Assembly: GCF_002742645.2 (NCBI RefSeq)
Contig: NZ_CP033875.1
Coordinates: forward strand, 3,698,001 to 3,762,000
Reading direction: 5' to 3'
Source: Caulobacter sp. FWC26
GTDB taxonomy: Bacteria; Pseudomonadota; Alphaproteobacteria; Caulobacterales; Caulobacteraceae
Length of the DNA stretch: 64,000 nucleotides
The notes beneath the pieces were generated by a model. The model made no database searches. It was not told where the DNA came from and was given only the letters and a program-made list of their open reading frames with translations. How positions within the stretch are numbered: position 1 is the first letter of the stretch; each line of letters opens with the position of its first letter. Below are positions 41,099 to 50,073 of the stretch, piece after piece. The position numbers and the translations under genes were made by a program.

Positions 41099-41218
41099 TC
41101 AGGCCTCGTCGAGGCCTTCGTCGCCCTCGTCGGACAGGCCGAACTCGTACCACATGCCGTTGAGCACGCCGAAGGCGACGGCCAGGCCCAGGCCCAGGAT
41201 CCAGGTGAAATACCACAT
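41099..41218 (-). CDS. cydX: Cytochrome bd oxidase small subunit CydX
   Basis: 39 residues starting MWYFTWILGLGLAVAFGVLN, the CydX signature, with one TM helix and an acidic tail (LSDEGDEGLDEA). CydX stabilises the heme groups of CydAB. It starts 18 bp after the cydB stop with SD GGAAAC nearby, completing a cydABX operon. Too short for ordinary gene callers. Confidence 0.95.
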   Translation of the reverse strand: MWYFTWILGLGLAVAFGVLNGMWYEFGLSDEGDEGLDEA

Positions 41219-44040: not shown

Positions 44041-44054
44041 TTGATCAGGATCAA
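44041..44054. promoter_or_regulatory. FNR/FixK box between cydA and cydD
   Basis: TTGAT-CAGG-ATCAA is a perfect FNR/FixK consensus. If it sits at -41.5, transcription of cydA would begin near 44006 with a 42-base leader, which is sensible. On the other side the start would fall near 44089, at the ATG 44088 of cydD, so its role there is less clear. Confidence 0.8.
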
Positions 44055-44063
44055 GGTAACGGG

Positions 44064-45728
44064 ATGATCGCACCCTACACTCAACCGATGGGCGCCCGCA
44101 TAGTGCAGATTGATCGTCAGGTTCAGGCCAAGGTTTGGCTCAAGGGTTTCGAGCGGAACGCCGCGTCGGCGATCCGTCGCGCCGGGCTGCTTGGCCTGGC
44201 TGACGGAATCGCCGCGATCGCCTTCGCCGCCGGCCTGGCTCTGAGCGTCGACGCCATCGCCCAGCTGCGCGGTTTGGCCGCAATCGCCCCATGGCTGATC
44301 GTCGCCGCCCTCGCCCTGGCCGCACGGGGCGCCCTGGCCATGGCGACCGGCGTGATCGGAGCGGAGGCGGCCGCCAGGACCAAGGCGGCGCTGCGCATAA
44401 GCCTGGCCCGAGCGGTTTTCGCCGGCCCGCGCCGGCCCGCCGCCGAAGCCGCCACCGCGCTGGTGGAAGGCGTCGAGGCGATGGACGGTCATGTCGCCCG
44501 CTTTCTTCCCACGCGTCTGGCGGCGGGGGTTCTGCCGCTGATCTTGATCGCCGCCGCTGCGGTGGCCAGCCCGATCGCCGCCGCCATCATGCTGGGCACG
44601 TTGATCCCGTTCATCCTCGCCATGATCCTGACCGGAACCGCCGCCGCGACCGAGGCGCGCGCTCAGTTCCAGGCGCTGGAGCGACTTTCCGCCCTGTTCC
44701 TCGACCGCGTCCGCGCCCTGCCTGTCGTCCTGGCCTTCCAGGCCGAGGGCGCGACCACGGCGGCGCTGACCCGCTCGGCGTCCAACCTCGCCGAACGGAC
44801 GATCCGCGTCCTGCGCGTGGCGTTCCTGTCCTCGGCGGCTCTGGAGTTCTTCGCCGCGCTGTCGGTGGCGCTGGTGGCGGTCTATTGCGGCTTCAACCTC
44901 CTGCGCCTGCTGCCCTTCCCCGTCCCCGAACAGCTGGACCTCAAGCGCGCGTTCTTCGTGCTGGCGCTGGCGCCGGAGGTCTATGCGCCGATGCGCCGCC
45001 TGGCCGCCGGCTATCATGACCGTCAGGCCGCCGAGGCCGCCGCCGCCAGCCTCTCGACCTTCGAGGCCCCGGCGCCCAAAGCCGCCCACATTCCGCTGAA
45101 GATCGCGCCGTCGCTGCGCTTCGCCGGTGTGGAGATCCGCTATCCGGACACCGACGCCCCCGCCGTGCGCGGCTTCGACCTCGTCGCGCCCGCAGGCTCC
45201 GTAACGGCCCTGGTCGGCGCCAGCGGCGCGGGCAAGAGCTCGATCCTCAACGCCTTGCTCGGCCTGGCGCCGATCACCGCCGGCGCCGTCTCCATCAACG
45301 ATAATCCGTTTACGGATCTTTCGAGCGACATCGCCTGGGCCGGACAGTCGCCGCTGATCCTGCCGGCCTCGATCGCCGACAATATCGCCCTCTCGCGCCG
45401 CGACGCCACGCGCGCCGAGATCGCCGAGGCGGCTGGCCGCGCGGGTCTTGGCCCCGCCCTGGCCGTGCGGCCGGGCGGCCTCGACTTCATGCTCGACGAG
45501 CGCGGCTCGGGGCTTTCTGGCGGCGAGCGACGCCGCCTGTCCCTGGCCCGCGCCCTGCTCAAGCCCGCCCCGATCCTGCTGCTGGACGAGCCGACCGCCA
45601 ATCTCGACGCCGAGGCCGAGGCGGCGATGGTGGACGCCATCCGCGCCGCCGCGCAGGGACGCACCACCCTGATCGCCACCCACTCCGAGGCGGTCGCCGC
45701 CCTCGCCGACCAGGTGATCCGCCTGTGA
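44064..45728 (+). CDS. cydD: Thiol reductant ABC exporter subunit CydD
   Basis: 554 residues, a fused TM-ATPase half transporter that with CydC exports glutathione or cysteine to the periplasm, required for cytochrome bd assembly. Six N-terminal helices; Walker A VGASGAGKSS, signature LSGGERRRLSLARALL, Walker B PILLLDEPTA, switch His in IATHSE. ATG 44064 is chosen; ATG 43989 and ATG 44088 are alternatives. It overlaps cydC by four bases (GTGA). Confidence 0.93.
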   Translation: MIAPYTQPMGARIVQIDRQVQAKVWLKGFERNAASAIRRAGLLGLADGIAAIAFAAGLALSVDAIAQLRGLAAIAPWLIVAALALAARGALAMATGVIGAEAAARTKAALRISLARAVFAGPRRPAAEAATALVEGVEAMDGHVARFLPTRLAAGVLPLILIAAAAVASPIAAAIMLGTLIPFILAMILTGTAAATEARAQFQALERLSALFLDRVRALPVVLAFQAEGATTAALTRSASNLAERTIRVLRVAFLSSAALEFFAALSVALVAVYCGFNLLRLLPFPVPEQLDLKRAFFVLALAPEVYAPMRRLAAGYHDRQAAEAAAASLSTFEAPAPKAAHIPLKIAPSLRFAGVEIRYPDTDAPAVRGFDLVAPAGSVTALVGASGAGKSSILNALLGLAPITAGAVSINDNPFTDLSSDIAWAGQSPLILPASIADNIALSRRDATRAEIAEAAGRAGLGPALAVRPGGLDFMLDERGSGLSGGERRRLSLARALLKPAPILLLDEPTANLDAEAEAAMVDAIRAAAQGRTTLIATHSEAVAALADQVIRL

Positions 45729-47314
45729 CCAGTCCGCTCGACGATCTGATCCGCGCCCAGAAGCGCCAGCGCGCCGGCGCCTTGCGCCTGGCCATCCTCA
45801 GCGCCGTGACGGTGGGCGCGGCGTCGACCCTGCTGCTGGGGCTGTCGGGCTGGTTCATCGTGGCCAGCGCCATCGCCGGCGGCGCGGGTCTGGCCGCCGC
45901 GCACGCCTTCAACGTGCTGCTGCCCAGCGCCGGGATCCGCCTGCTGGCGATCCTGAGGACCGCCGCCCGCTATGGCGAGCGGCTATCGGGCCACGCCGCC
46001 GCCCTGCGGGCGCTGGCGGCCATCCGCCCGGCGGTCTTCCAGAGTCTGGCCGCCGCGCCGGCCTCGGAGTCCCTCACGCTGTCGCGCGGAGAGGCTTCCG
46101 CGCGCCTCGTCCAGGACGTCGACGCGATCGAGACCCGCTTTGTCCGCCTCTCCGCCCCTTGGAACGCCGCCGCCGGCCTCGGCTCGGGCCTGGCCGTCAC
46201 CCTTCTGGCCGGCTGGATCCCGACCTTGATCATCCTGGCCGCCGCCGGCCTGGCGATGCTGTCGGCCCAGGGCCTGGCCAGGCGCTTCTCGGCTCCGGCC
46301 CGCGCGGCGATCCAGGCGCGCACCGGAGCCTTGAAGGACTCGGTTGCGGCCTTGGTGTCGGCCTCTGCCGAGCTGCGCGCCTATGGCCTGGCCGACTGGG
46401 CGGGCGAGACGCTGAACGCCCGTGCGACCGCCTTGGACGCCGCCCGGCGCGACGCCGCCCGCGCCCAGGGGTTCATCGTTGCGGCCCAGGCGGTGATCGC
46501 GGGCGTGACCGTCGCGGCGGCGATCGCCTGCGCCGCGCCCGCCGGACCCGCGCTGGCCGCTCTGGCCGGCTTGGCGGCGGTGATGAGTCTCGACGCCCTG
46601 ACCAGCCTCGCCAACGCCTTCGACCAGGACGGCGGCGCCCGGCAGGCCCGCGAGCGGCTGGACGCCATCCTGCGCCATCGCCCGCGTCCGGCGCTTCCGA
46701 TCGCATCCTCGGCGACGCCCCTTCGTCTGCTGGACAACACGCTCGTGGCCGGAGACCGACTGGCGATCACCGGTCCGTCCGGTTGCGGCAAGACCACCGC
46801 CGTCGAGACTCTGCTGGGCCTGCGCGAGGCCGTCTCGCCCGCCGGGCGCGAGGCCTTCGCCTGGCTGCCGCAGGACGCCGGCCTGGTGGCGGGCACAGTC
46901 GCCGACAACCTGCGCCTGGCCTCGCCCAAGGCCAGCGACGCCGACCTCTGGGCCGCGTTGGAGGAGGCTTGCCTCGCCGATCGCATCCGCGCCGCGCCGG
47001 AGGGCCTTGCGACCTATGTCGGCGATGACGGCGAACGGCTGTCCGGCGGAGAGCGCCGGCGCCTGGCCCTGGCCCGCGCCTATCTGCGCGACGCGCCCTG
47101 GCTGCTGCTGGACGAACCGACCGAGGGACTGGACCCGGCGACCGAAACCCAGGTCGTCGCGCGCCTCGACGCCCGTCTGAAGCGCACGGGCCAGGGCCTG
47201 ATCCTGGTCAGCCATCGCTCCGCGCCCGTGGCGATCTGCCCGAAGGTCCTGCGTATGGACGGAAAAGAAAAAGGCCCGGCGACCAAGTCGCCGAGCCTCG
47301 TCCCCACACCATGA
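45725..47314 (+). CDS. cydC: Thiol reductant ABC exporter subunit CydC
   Basis: 529 residues, partner of CydD. Walker A TGPSGCGKTT, signature RLSGGERRRLALARAYL, Walker B PWLLLDEPTEG, switch LVSHRS. GTG 45725 overlaps the cydD stop. The last codons contain a hairpin that serves as terminator for the gene on the other strand, so the ends of the two units are interlocked. Confidence 0.93.
   Translation: MTSPLDDLIRAQKRQRAGALRLAILSAVTVGAASTLLLGLSGWFIVASAIAGGAGLAAAHAFNVLLPSAGIRLLAILRTAARYGERLSGHAAALRALAAIRPAVFQSLAAAPASESLTLSRGEASARLVQDVDAIETRFVRLSAPWNAAAGLGSGLAVTLLAGWIPTLIILAAAGLAMLSAQGLARRFSAPARAAIQARTGALKDSVAALVSASAELRAYGLADWAGETLNARATALDAARRDAARAQGFIVAAQAVIAGVTVAAAIACAAPAGPALAALAGLAAVMSLDALTSLANAFDQDGGARQARERLDAILRHRPRPALPIASSATPLRLLDNTLVAGDRLAITGPSGCGKTTAVETLLGLREAVSPAGREAFAWLPQDAGLVAGTVADNLRLASPKASDADLWAALEEACLADRIRAAPEGLATYVGDDGERLSGGERRRLALARAYLRDAPWLLLDEPTEGLDPATETQVVARLDARLKRTGQGLILVSHRSAPVAICPKVLRMDGKEKGPATKSPSLVPTP
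47263..47298 (-). terminator. Minus-strand terminator inside the cydC 3' end
   Basis: Stem GGCTCGGCGA/TCGCCGGGCC on the minus strand (47273-47282 with 47288-47297), 5-base loop, then TTTTTCTTTT. The fourth pair is U-G in minus RNA but C-A in plus RNA, so the element is made for the minus strand and ends the small gene at 47323-47424. Confidence 0.75.
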
Positions 47315-47322
47315 TCAGATCG

Positions 47323-47424
47323 CTACTTCAGGTTCACCCGGATATGCGTGGTGAACAGCACGATAGCGAAGGTCGCGAAGGCGCCGATCACCAGCGCCAG
47401 ATAGGCCGTTTGTCCGCCCGACAT
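47323..47424 (-). CDS. 33-aa single-pass membrane protein under a FixK box
   Basis: Begins MSGGQTAYLALVIGAF and continues with a hydrophobic helix to a short basic tail (HIRVNLK). SD AAGGGAG stands seven bases before ATG 47424. A FixK box at 47480-47493 is placed to give a start near 47445 and a 21-base leader; a terminator follows 25 bp after the stop. So it forms a complete small transcription unit. It may be a low-oxygen small subunit or regulator of a terminal oxidase or of FixL. No family recognised. Confidence 0.75.
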   Translation of the reverse strand: MSGGQTAYLALVIGAFATFAIVLFTTHIRVNLK

Positions 47425-47479
47425 CGACAGTCTCCCTTGTTAGAGAAGGTCAGGCTGCGGGGTTCGGCGCGGGCTCGCC

Positions 47480-47493
47480 TTGACCTGGCTCAA
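47480..47493. promoter_or_regulatory. FNR/FixK box between the 33-aa gene and fixL
   Basis: TTGACCTGGCTCAA fits TTG-N8-CAA with TTGA/TCAA ends. Spacing suits the minus-strand small gene (about 62 bp from box centre to ATG); toward fixL the implied start would lie past its SD, so fixL is a less likely target. Confidence 0.7.
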
Positions 47494-47540
47494 ATGGGCT
47501 TGGCTATAACACCGTCGGATTCCAGGAGCCGCGCGCGACC

Positions 47541-49028
47541 ATGAAACCGTCCAGGGGCCTGTCCTCGACCCTGTTCAGCGATCCCCACCCGACCGCCTAT
47601 CTGGCCGCCTTCGCTGCGGTGATGGCGACGGCGGTGGCGCGTCTCTACCTGCCTGAAGCCTTCACGGCGCCCTCGTCCTTCCTGTTGTTCGTCCCGGCGG
47701 TGCTGGTCAGCGCGGCGCTGGGCGGAGTCGGCCCCGGCGTGTTCGGCACCACCTTCGCCTGGGCGGCGGTCTGGTGGGTCACCCGGGACATCCCGTTCGA
47801 TCTGGTCAGCGGGCTGTCGGCGGCGATCTTCCTGTCGGTGGGCTTTGGCATGGCCGTGGGCGGCGGCTGGTTCCATGCCGCGCGCCGCCGCGCCGCCGCG
47901 ATCAACGACCATCTGAGCTCGATCCTCGACACCGTGCCCGACGCCGTGGTGGTCATTGATCGGGCGGGGATCATGACCTCGTTCAGCCCGGCGGCGCAGC
48001 GGATGTTCGGCTGGACCGAGGCCGAGGCGATCGGCAAGAACGTCAGCCTGCTGATGCCCGAGCCCTACCAGTCCTCCCACGACGCCTATCTGGCGCGCTA
48101 CGCCCGCACCGGCGAGAAACGGATCATCGGCGCGGGCCGCGTCGTCGTGGGCCGCCGCAAGGATGGCTCGACCTTCCCCATGGAGCTGGCGGTCGGCGAA
48201 ACCCGAGGACCGACCCCCTCGTTCACCGGATTCATCCGTGATCTGACCGAACGCCAGGAGACCGAGACCCGCCTGCAGGAACTGCAGAACGAGCTGGTCC
48301 ACGTCTCGCGCCTGACCGCCATGGGCGAGATGGCCTCGACCCTGGCGCACGAGCTGAACCAGCCGCTGTCGGCGATCGCCAACCTGCTGACCGGCTCGCG
48401 CCGTCTGATGGATCGCGGCCGCGAGGCCGACCAGGCGAAGGTCCGCGACGCCATCGACCGCGCCGCCGCCCAGGCCCTGCGCGCCGGCGAGGTGATCCAC
48501 CGCATGCGCGACTTCGCCCGGCGCGGCGCCAGCGAGCGCGAAGCCGAGAGCCTGTCCAAGCTGATCGAGGAAGCCTCGGCCCTGGCCCTGATCGGCGAGA
48601 AGGAACGTCAGGTCGATGTCCGCCTGAAACTTGATCCAAAGGCCGACGATGTCTTCGCCGACCGGGTCCAGATTCAGCAGGTGCTGCTCAACCTGATCCG
48701 CAACGGCATCGACGCCATGCAGGCCCAGGAGCCGCGCAAGCGGGCGCTTCTGATCCGAACGGGCCTCACCGAAGAGGGGTGGTCGGAGGTCAGTGTCGCC
48801 GATACGGGGCCTGGCATCGCGCCGGAGGTGCTGGAGCGTCTGTTCCAACCGTTCATGACCACCAAGCCGCAGGGGATGGGCGTGGGCCTGTCCATCTCGC
48901 GTTCGATCATCGAGGCGCACGGCGGCCGCATCTGGGCCGAGGCGAATCCTGGCGGCGGCGCGCTATTCCGATTTACGTTGCCGCCGGCCGAGTCCTTGGC
49001 CGGCGAAAAGGAGACGATCGATGACTGA
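47541..49028 (+). CDS. fixL: Oxygen sensor histidine kinase FixL
   Basis: 495 residues. Several N-terminal TM helices (to about residue 112), a heme-binding PAS domain (about 122-240), then HisKA and HATPase domains. Proximal heme His is H180 in [10 protein letters not shown] and the key Arg is R200 in IIGAGR, 20 residues apart as in rhizobial FixL (His200/Arg220). Phospho-acceptor H270 in [11 protein letters not shown]1 and G2 boxes [27 protein letters not shown]. Kinase is active when heme is deoxy. SD AGGAG precedes ATG 47541. Overlaps fixJ by 8 bases. Confidence 0.96.
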
Positions 49029-49629
49029 CGCCCCCGTGGTCCACGTGGTGGATGACGACGAGAGCGCCCGCGAGTCGTTGGCGTTCCTCCTGGAGTCGGC
49101 CGACTTCGAGGTCGTGACCTACGCCAGCGCGCCCGCGTTCCTGGACGCCCTGCCGCAGGCCAAGCCCGGCGTGATCATCACCGACGTGCGAATGCCCGAG
49201 ATGAGCGGCCAGGACCTGGTCGCCCGGCTGTCGGCCCTGAAGATCAAGATGCCGATCGTGATGATCACCGGCCACGGCGACATCCCGATGGCGGTCGAAG
49301 CCATGCGTTCGGGCGTGGTCGACTTCCTGGAAAAGCCATTCTCGGAGTCGCGGATGCTGGACGCGCTCAAGCGCGCCTTCGCCAGCGTCGAGGCCGCGCC
49401 TGTCTCCGACGACCAGGCGGCGATCCTCAAGCGGATCGAGAGCCTGTCCGAGCGCGAGCGCCAGGTGCTGGACGGCGTGGTGGCCGGCCACGCCAACAAG
49501 GTCATCGCTCGCGATCTGGGAATCAGCCCCCGCACGGTCGAGATCTATCGCGCCAAGCTGATGACCAAGATGCAGGCCGACAATCTGGCGGCCCTTGTGC
49601 GCATGACCCTGTCGGTGCGCGGCGGCTAG
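49021..49629 (+). CDS. fixJ: Response regulator FixJ
   Basis: 202 residues: receiver domain with D55 phosphoacceptor ([11 protein letters not shown]), acidic pocket VDDDE, K105 in FLEKPF, and a C-terminal LuxR-type HTH ([40 protein letters not shown]). FixL-phosphorylated FixJ activates fixK. Translationally coupled to fixL. Its stop overlaps the convergent fixT stop by four bases. Confidence 0.96.
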
Positions 49630-49958
49630 AGCCCCGGCGCGGCGCGGGCCAGCAGGGTCGAGAGCTCACGGCCCAGCCTGTCGTCCAGCAACGGCTTTTC
49701 CACCAGGGTGACGCCGGTGACGCCTCGTCGGGCCAGGCGTTGCGCGTCGCCGGTCAGCACGATCGTCGGTCGGCCGGGGGTCGTTGGGGGCAGAGTCGTG
49801 TCACCGTCGTCGATGACCACGCAGGCTGCGGCCCGACAATCCGAGCAGGACAGGCACCCGTGGGTGTCAGCCGGCGCCCGCACGGCATAGCCGTCGGTCT
49901 CCAACGAGAACCGCAGCGCGTCGCGCAGGGCCTCGTCGTCCACGAGGAGAAGGATCAT
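49626..49958 (-). CDS. fixT: FixT-type receiver protein with cysteine cluster
   Basis: A 110-residue single receiver domain from ATG 49958 (MILLLVDDEALRDALRFSLE) with K88 in VEKP but a poorly conserved phospho-Asp strand (VVIDD, D50/51). It carries four cysteines in a short loop (C35, C38, C41, C46 in HGCLSCSDCRAAAC). Caulobacter FixT is known as a FixL inhibitor that binds an Fe-S cluster. Longer in-frame starts exist at ATG 50003 and ATG 50051, none with a strong SD. Convergent with fixJ, divergent from fixK. Confidence 0.85.
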   Translation of the reverse strand: MILLLVDDEALRDALRFSLETDGYAVRAPADTHGCLSCSDCRAAACVVIDDGDTTLPPTTPGRPTIVLTGDAQRLARRGVTGVTLVEKPLLDDRLGRELSTLLARAAPGL

Positions 49959-50073
49959 GGGACGGTCGGTCTCGCCGTCCGACGGGTCGGGCCGGTCGCA
50001 CATGAAACCAGCACGCCACGAGAACGCTCGGCGAACCTTGATCGGCGTCAAAATCGCCGACCTCCGCGTTTGT

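Follow-up and report, generated by a model that had tools for sequence, protein, structure and literature searches.

The 64,000-nucleotide (nt) stretch of the Caulobacter sp. FWC26 genome analysed here (hereafter referred to as the window) carries a 33-codon gene (47323–47424, − strand; hereafter the small gene) in the interval between cydC (45725–47314, + strand; a name taken from the first-pass annotation) and fixL (47541–49028, + strand; presumably so, on the basis of that annotation and of family knowledge). The small gene lies on the strand opposite to both, with cydC as its convergent and fixL as its divergent neighbour. Its product, MSGGQTAYLALVIGAFATFAIVLFTTHIRVNLK, has a single predicted transmembrane helix at residues 3 to 31, and the gene is under purifying selection. 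A Shine–Dalgarno sequence, AAGGGAG (47432–47438, − strand), was read from the sequence 7 nt 5′ of the ATG, and a FixK box, TTGACCTGGCTCAA (TTGAGCCAGGTCAA on the − strand; 47480–47493), starts 69 nt upstream of the ATG; the box is an exact TTGA-N6-TCAA and has one mismatch to the stricter TTGAY-N4-RTCAA. The small gene is followed by an intrinsic terminator (47271–47299, − strand; 13 pairs, 9 of them GC, and a T tail), the stem of which lies within the 3′ end of cydC. No canonical −10 element was recognised for the small gene, and a genome search found it in one copy. The first-pass annotation had described a complete FixK-type unit, and its reading frame, Shine–Dalgarno sequence, box and terminator were all recovered at these positions, with the transmembrane protein conserved.

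Comparison of 19 distinct Caulobacter-type alleles (loci L001–L020) gave a pooled pN/pS of 0.36 and a median dN/dS of about 0.28 in the small-gene frame, and pN/pS values of 0.70–1.47 in the other five frames. Mean pairwise identity was 0.56 over the 20 nt preceding the ATG and 0.52–0.53 in the FixK box region. A search with the single sequence as query matched 25 of 150 genomes (own included, E ≤ 0.1), and a profile (A4, described below) found the small gene in 55 of the 75 genomes of the genus (E ≤ 1e-3, own again included), a few of these matches falling within longer open frames; four genomes with a best E above 1e-3 (G067, G016, G059 and G007) were scored as non-carriers. A terminator under a strict ungapped rule was present within 100 nt of the stop codon in 20 of 70 family loci, as compared with 3 of 350 random stretches, and in 11 of the loci L001–L018. 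Thus, 47323–47424 is a real conserved gene under coding constraint. Public databases hold family members of 35–67 residues, which are called hypothetical or uncharacterized proteins where they are named at all; a DUF983 family label on one 41-residue member, for which no Pfam domain is recorded, was taken as a misnomer. Ribosome profiling of Caulobacter yielded 94 new small open reading frames, according to the part of the study available (PMC4117421), and the small gene may be among them.

AlphaFold2 predicts that the product forms one helix spanning residues 3–31 (mean pLDDT 95.1). Among 33 family members, the conserved residues are Y8, L9, V12, A15, F16, F19 and L23, of which F19 is present in 33 of 33. 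L9, V12, F16, F19 and L23 form a heptad series, and the best heptad phase beats that of shuffled sequences (permutation p = 0.012), so this conserved face looks made for packing against another helix. On average, the N-terminal side of the helix is acidic and the C-terminal side basic, which, by the positive-inside rule, would probably place the N terminus in the periplasm and the C terminus in the cytoplasm.

Relatives of the protein extend well beyond its own family of bacteria. A profile built from Caulobacteraceae proteins only (A2) gave 20 matches at E ≤ 1e-3 in 385 alphaproteobacterial genomes, 18 of them outside Caulobacteraceae. The second profile, A4, gave 30 matches at E ≤ 0.02 in a 250-genome draw from the same class, 23 of them (own genome included) at E < 1e-4; A4 contains the sequences found by A2, the later scores of which are circular. 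We combined the 18 loci from A2 with 8 new loci from A4 (E < 1e-4) into a set of 26 class loci, representing, by handle count, about 20 genera beyond Caulobacteraceae, all found with protein-only profiles. One locus (L081, a second place in genome G454 within an 820-residue frame) was dropped from the class counts, as were L122–L128 (E 0.0025–0.018, frames of 108–612 residues), the genomes of which were scored as non-carriers; the class tables omit G000, G076 and G091. By source name, members come from, among others, Candidatus Puniceispirillum marinum, Caulobacter segnis, a Candidatus Phaeomarinobacter and a Rhodospirillales bacterium. A draw of 261 genomes across the phylum gave 6 matches at E ≤ 0.005, and the sole one beyond the class (G911), a weak match in a 353-residue frame, was not counted.

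The FixK box accompanies the gene across this range. An exact box starts 67–71 nt upstream of the ATG in all 20 of the loci L001–L020 (own included). A FixK/FNR box was found upstream in 23 of the 26 class loci (18 exact, 5 with one mismatch, 3 with none). The exact boxes are at −67 to −88 from the match start, itself within two codons of the ATG, and those with one mismatch are at −69, −71, −101, −101 and −122, the last three being odd spacings. Among genes of the same loci taken as controls, 4 of 211 have an exact box at −130 to −50, which gives a binomial p of 1.6e-40 for the class-locus boxes, a value that ignores relatedness, with several loci sharing a genus. The profiles with which the class loci were found used no upstream DNA. 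Counted by genus (again by handle), the box is exact in 13 of the 20 genera outside Caulobacteraceae and present with at most one mismatch in 17 of 20. Among 20 further Caulobacteraceae loci, 11 have exact boxes (L039, L043, L045, L046, L050, L051, L052 and L054–L057), 4 have a box with one mismatch only (L038, L041, L047 and, at −39, L042), and 5 have no box from −250 to +200 (L040, L044, L048, L049 and L053). Of L021–L025, three have an exact box, L025 has one with a single mismatch and L021 has none. The box thus stays with the gene in a majority of loci and over many genera; it is not universal, and is often missing where the small gene adjoins fixJ.

In the window, the box also faces fixL, and the first-pass annotation had argued that its spacing fits the small gene better. 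The distance separating the box from the start of the homologous fixL is 47 nt in 12 of the 20 loci L001–L020 and 38–95 nt in the remaining 8, and this spacing is therefore less fixed than that to the small gene. The argument holds to this extent, with the caveat that the gap to fixL is constant in 12 of the 20. An exact box at −300 to +120 of the called start was found in 0 of 9 fixL genes, all non-divergent from the small gene, with a one-mismatch match at the start codon in L038; in L095, fixL is preceded at a distance of about 480 nt, beyond this range, by the small gene with its box. Moreover, 12 of the further Caulobacteraceae loci have no fixL match in the examined stretch, and 11 of these keep an exact box (all but L044). 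These observations suggest that the small gene has at least as strong a claim to the box as fixL.

The housekeeping −10 consensus of Caulobacter is GCTANAWC. A candidate −10 of a divergent fixL promoter, GCTATAAC (47503–47510, + strand), lies 9 nt from the FixK box, and on the fixL strand GCTATA or CTATA is found at a distance of 9–10 nt in 18 of the 20 loci (L001–L018), one half of the box reading TTGACC. This half may therefore double as the −35 of the fixL promoter, judging from its position and sequence. By the rules known for CRP/FNR proteins, a site near −30 suits repression more than activation; FixK bound to the box would sit near −30 of fixL, for which repression fits better. The overlap of the box with the −35 of a conserved fixL promoter-like site (47480–47510) thus suggests that the effect of FixK on fixL may be repression and not activation. 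According to the accessible passages of a comparative study, FixK targets include fixLJ, and FixK control of fixJ closes a feedback loop in C. crescentus, C. segnis and Caulobacter sp. K31 (PMC4999443). We take this loop to rest on the same FixK box, a point that those passages do not state; the small gene would then be another owner for a box that the comparative work probably counted as fixLJ autoregulation.

Given this arrangement, we considered whether the unit might encode no protein, the transcript being a regulatory RNA with an incidental frame, or the box serving fixL only. The shortness of the unit, its strong terminator, the overlap of the box with the fixL promoter-like site and the constant gap to fixL in 12 of 20 loci would all suit such a reading. 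Nevertheless, it is highly improbable, because the dN/dS of 0.28 is specific to the small-gene frame, the helix motif recurs in about 20 further genera and an exact box is present in nearly all of the loci that have no fixL nearby.

Two other exact FixK boxes in the window bear on gene starts. One (50038–50051) falls in the opening codons of the longest fixT-like frame (49626–50051, − strand), so translation of fixT probably begins downstream of the TTG listed as its start. The other (44041–44054) lies between the divergent cydA and cydD, in the opening codons of the cydD frame as listed (43989), and cydD therefore probably starts further downstream. In the same genome, ccoN, a known FixK target, has a box at −70 from its called start, which is the layout of the small gene. 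Both cydA and ccoN are among the FixK-activated genes of Caulobacter in the part of PMC3751524 available.

The neighbours of the small gene differ from group to group. In L001–L020, fixL adjoins the small gene in 20 of 20 loci and a CydC match is present in 19; in the exception, L016, fixL is still the neighbour of the small gene, and the 3.1 kb of the locus contain no cydC match. Elsewhere, a FixL match was found in 8 of the 20 further Caulobacteraceae loci (L038, L040–L042, L047–L049 and L053) and in 2 of 18 class loci, L095 and L092 (about 3 kb away in L092), whereas no FixL match was found within the examined 3–16 kb in 28 of these 38 further loci. Other neighbours in the 18 longer class loci showed no common theme, and this variety indicates that the small gene is a stand-alone unit. 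In another Caulobacter group (L043, L045 and L057), its neighbours are cydDC and an OmpW-like gene in place of fixL. On the strand of the small gene, and beginning about 95 nt past it, a 369-residue AurF-like diiron protein (PF11583, as tested for the copy from L038) is encoded in four loci (L038, 6787–7896; L039, 8200–9309; L041, 8203–9312; L056, 8186–9295). As an operon partner it was rejected, since a strict-rule terminator lies within 100 nt past the small-gene stop in L038, L041 and L056 (none in L039); the AurF-like gene is probably a separate neighbour, possibly a separate low-oxygen gene.

These neighbourhoods bear on the first-pass proposal that the protein modulates FixL, as a membrane feedback peptide akin to FixT or to small kinase regulators. 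The constant company of fixL in L001–L020, the occurrence of FixJ and/or FixL matches near the small gene in L023–L025, L038, L040–L042, L048 and L049, and the N-terminal part of FixL, which is hydrophobic as judged by eye, agree with such a function, and FixK control would give a feedback loop. In L095 (4002–6515), which is outside Caulobacteraceae (Rhodospirillales by database name), the box and small gene precede fixL–fixJ on the same strand. However, with FixL matches missing from the surroundings of the gene in most of the further loci, and with FixT already known to inhibit FixL in Caulobacter (PMC7078487, in the part available), this proposal is not supported as it was made, and we consider it quite unlikely.

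The alternative proposal, that the protein is an unrecognised small subunit of an oxidase, divides by the oxidase concerned. For cytochrome bd, the place of the gene beside cydDC, with CydC in 19 of L001–L020 and the cydDC–ompW cluster in L043, L045 and L057, would suggest a subunit similar to CydX or CydH. Yet the window encodes a separate cydX directly downstream of cydB (41141–41218, − strand; PF08173, 54.3 bits, over the cut-off), and the small gene is therefore not a missing CydX; as a candidate CydX it was rejected. Furthermore, L016 keeps the small gene beside fixL with no cydC match. In the class set outside the near family, with kinship ignored, a cydA match was found in 10 of 22 carriers and 84 of 225 others (p = 0.49); with 12 of 22 carriers having no cydA match, the gene is not confined to bd genomes. 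This distribution largely refutes a bd subunit, which we regard as very unlikely.

For cbb3 oxidase, the small gene could encode an orphan-coded accessory subunit that docks on CcoN in the manner of CcoM or CcoH. In favour of this, ccoN shows a weak positive association with the small gene: in the class it was found in 14 of the 22 carriers and in 85 of the 225 other genomes (Fisher p = 0.023, kinship ignored), and in the genus in 36 of the 55 carriers as against 6 of the 20 non-carriers (75 genomes, p = 0.009, kinship ignored), although among the 60 good-quality genus genomes the counts are 33 of 49 and 4 of 11 (p = 0.086). The box layout is shared with ccoN, and no more than about 4 kb separates ccoN from the small gene in L038, L039, L041 and L047. 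Against it, no ccoN match was obtained for 8 of the 22 carriers in the class or for 16 of the 49 good-quality carriers in the genus, which led us to reject an exclusive cbb3 subunit, that is, one found only with ccoN. One-contig genomes provide exceptions in both directions: G005 has the small gene without a ccoN match, and G027 and G048 have ccoN without a small-gene match at E ≤ 0.05. Genome size and a hypoxic lifestyle could also produce the association. A cbb3 subunit is accordingly unlikely. Five of the 22 class carriers (G484, G437, G371, G571 and G389) have neither a ccoN nor a cydA match, the assembly of G371 being 77% complete. The small gene is thus not a dedicated bd or cbb3 subunit gene; of the first-pass oxidase proposal, neither the bd form nor the cbb3 form is supported as stated, and a loose link with cbb3 or with a low-oxygen lifestyle remains.

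We tentatively favour the view that the small gene represents an unnamed, FixK/FNR-controlled family of single-helix proteins that probably pack, by way of the conserved heptad positions, onto a low-oxygen membrane complex. Based on the layout of the locus, the gene would belong to the FixK regulon as a monocistronic unit. When oxygen is low, FixL–FixJ would raise FixK, which would bind the box in a class-II-like position, with the box centre about 62 nt before the ATG, a placement that would put the transcription start about 20 nt before the ATG, and would switch on a short mRNA ending at the terminator in cydC. The sequence features thus point to FixK/FNR activation of the small gene. The product would be a single helix whose face of L9, V12, F16, F19 and L23 most likely packs on a helix of a larger inner-membrane protein. 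It would be an accessory subunit, or else a stabiliser, of a complex that converts energy at low oxygen, and not uniquely of cytochrome bd or cbb3. We infer the accessory role from these properties; its placement at a respiratory membrane complex in low oxygen is plausible.

A more specific form of this idea draws on mitochondria, in which hypoxia-induced small subunits retune complexes. By analogy, alphaproteobacteria might add the helix at low oxygen to a constitutive aerobic complex, such as the aa3 oxidase or bc1, and thereby retune it. Such a partner would explain the carriers with neither bd nor cbb3 matches, but the proposal is speculative, and we think it improbable. The helix might also act at the membrane outside respiration; induced at low oxygen, it could for instance be an adaptor for a protease, a transporter regulator or a membrane-stress peptide. 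Small single-helix proteins often act as adaptors, regulators or stress peptides, and the scattered neighbours of the gene, with no fixed respiratory partner, would fit such a role. On the other hand, the available passages of the comparative study describe the Caulobacterales FixK regulon as limited to redox processes (PMC4999443), and a non-respiratory role seems to us unlikely. The favoured view, an accessory helix of a low-oxygen membrane complex, has implications beyond Caulobacter. FixK/FNR is a main low-oxygen switch of alphaproteobacteria, and a gene too small for most annotation, yet boxed in 17 of 20 sampled genera outside Caulobacteraceae, is likely to be a missing part of their low-oxygen physiology.

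The family has no name in Pfam, NCBIfam or the PDB, and within the literature searched, supplements aside, we recognised no paper as describing it. The window protein has no Pfam or NCBIfam match, and the 33 members showed scattered weak matches that we took as chance (best Pfam E 0.04; CcmD in 2 members, best 0.05; best NCBIfam E 0.0031, in one member) and no PDB sequence match. Several known small proteins are nevertheless similar in kind. CydX (YbgT_YccB, PF08173), the small subunit of cytochrome bd, is alike in its length of about 30–40 residues, its one helix, its low-oxygen respiratory setting and its FixK-box neighbourhood; by contrast, the present family lies outside the cydAB operon, occurs without cydA and has no PF08173 match at E ≤ 1 in the 33 members. 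CydH (YnhF) of Escherichia coli bd-I is likewise an orphan-coded single helix of about 30 residues, but its sequence motif differs, and our family occurs without cydA and matches no PDB chain. CcoQ/FixQ (PF05545) is a small single-transmembrane protein of the FixK regulon; the family lacks such a Pfam match, and the small gene lies outside the cco operon. In the portion available of a report on Sinorhizobium meliloti, SEP20 is a small conserved alphaproteobacterial transmembrane protein of ctaCDBGE, proposed for an oxidase (PMC10117765); by description it is like the family, and it differs in being operon-encoded, between ctaB and ctaG. CcoM of the Pseudomonas stutzeri cbb3 oxidase is, in the part of the source available, a 36-residue subunit linked to oxygen limitation (PMC10433244), from which the family differs, by description, in occurring also without ccoN and in having no PDB sequence match, although the latter does not prove that the helix is missing from the enzyme. 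None of the tests that we ran placed the family with any of these proteins, and by analogy in size, fold and setting it resembles, in kind, CydX, CydH and CcoM.
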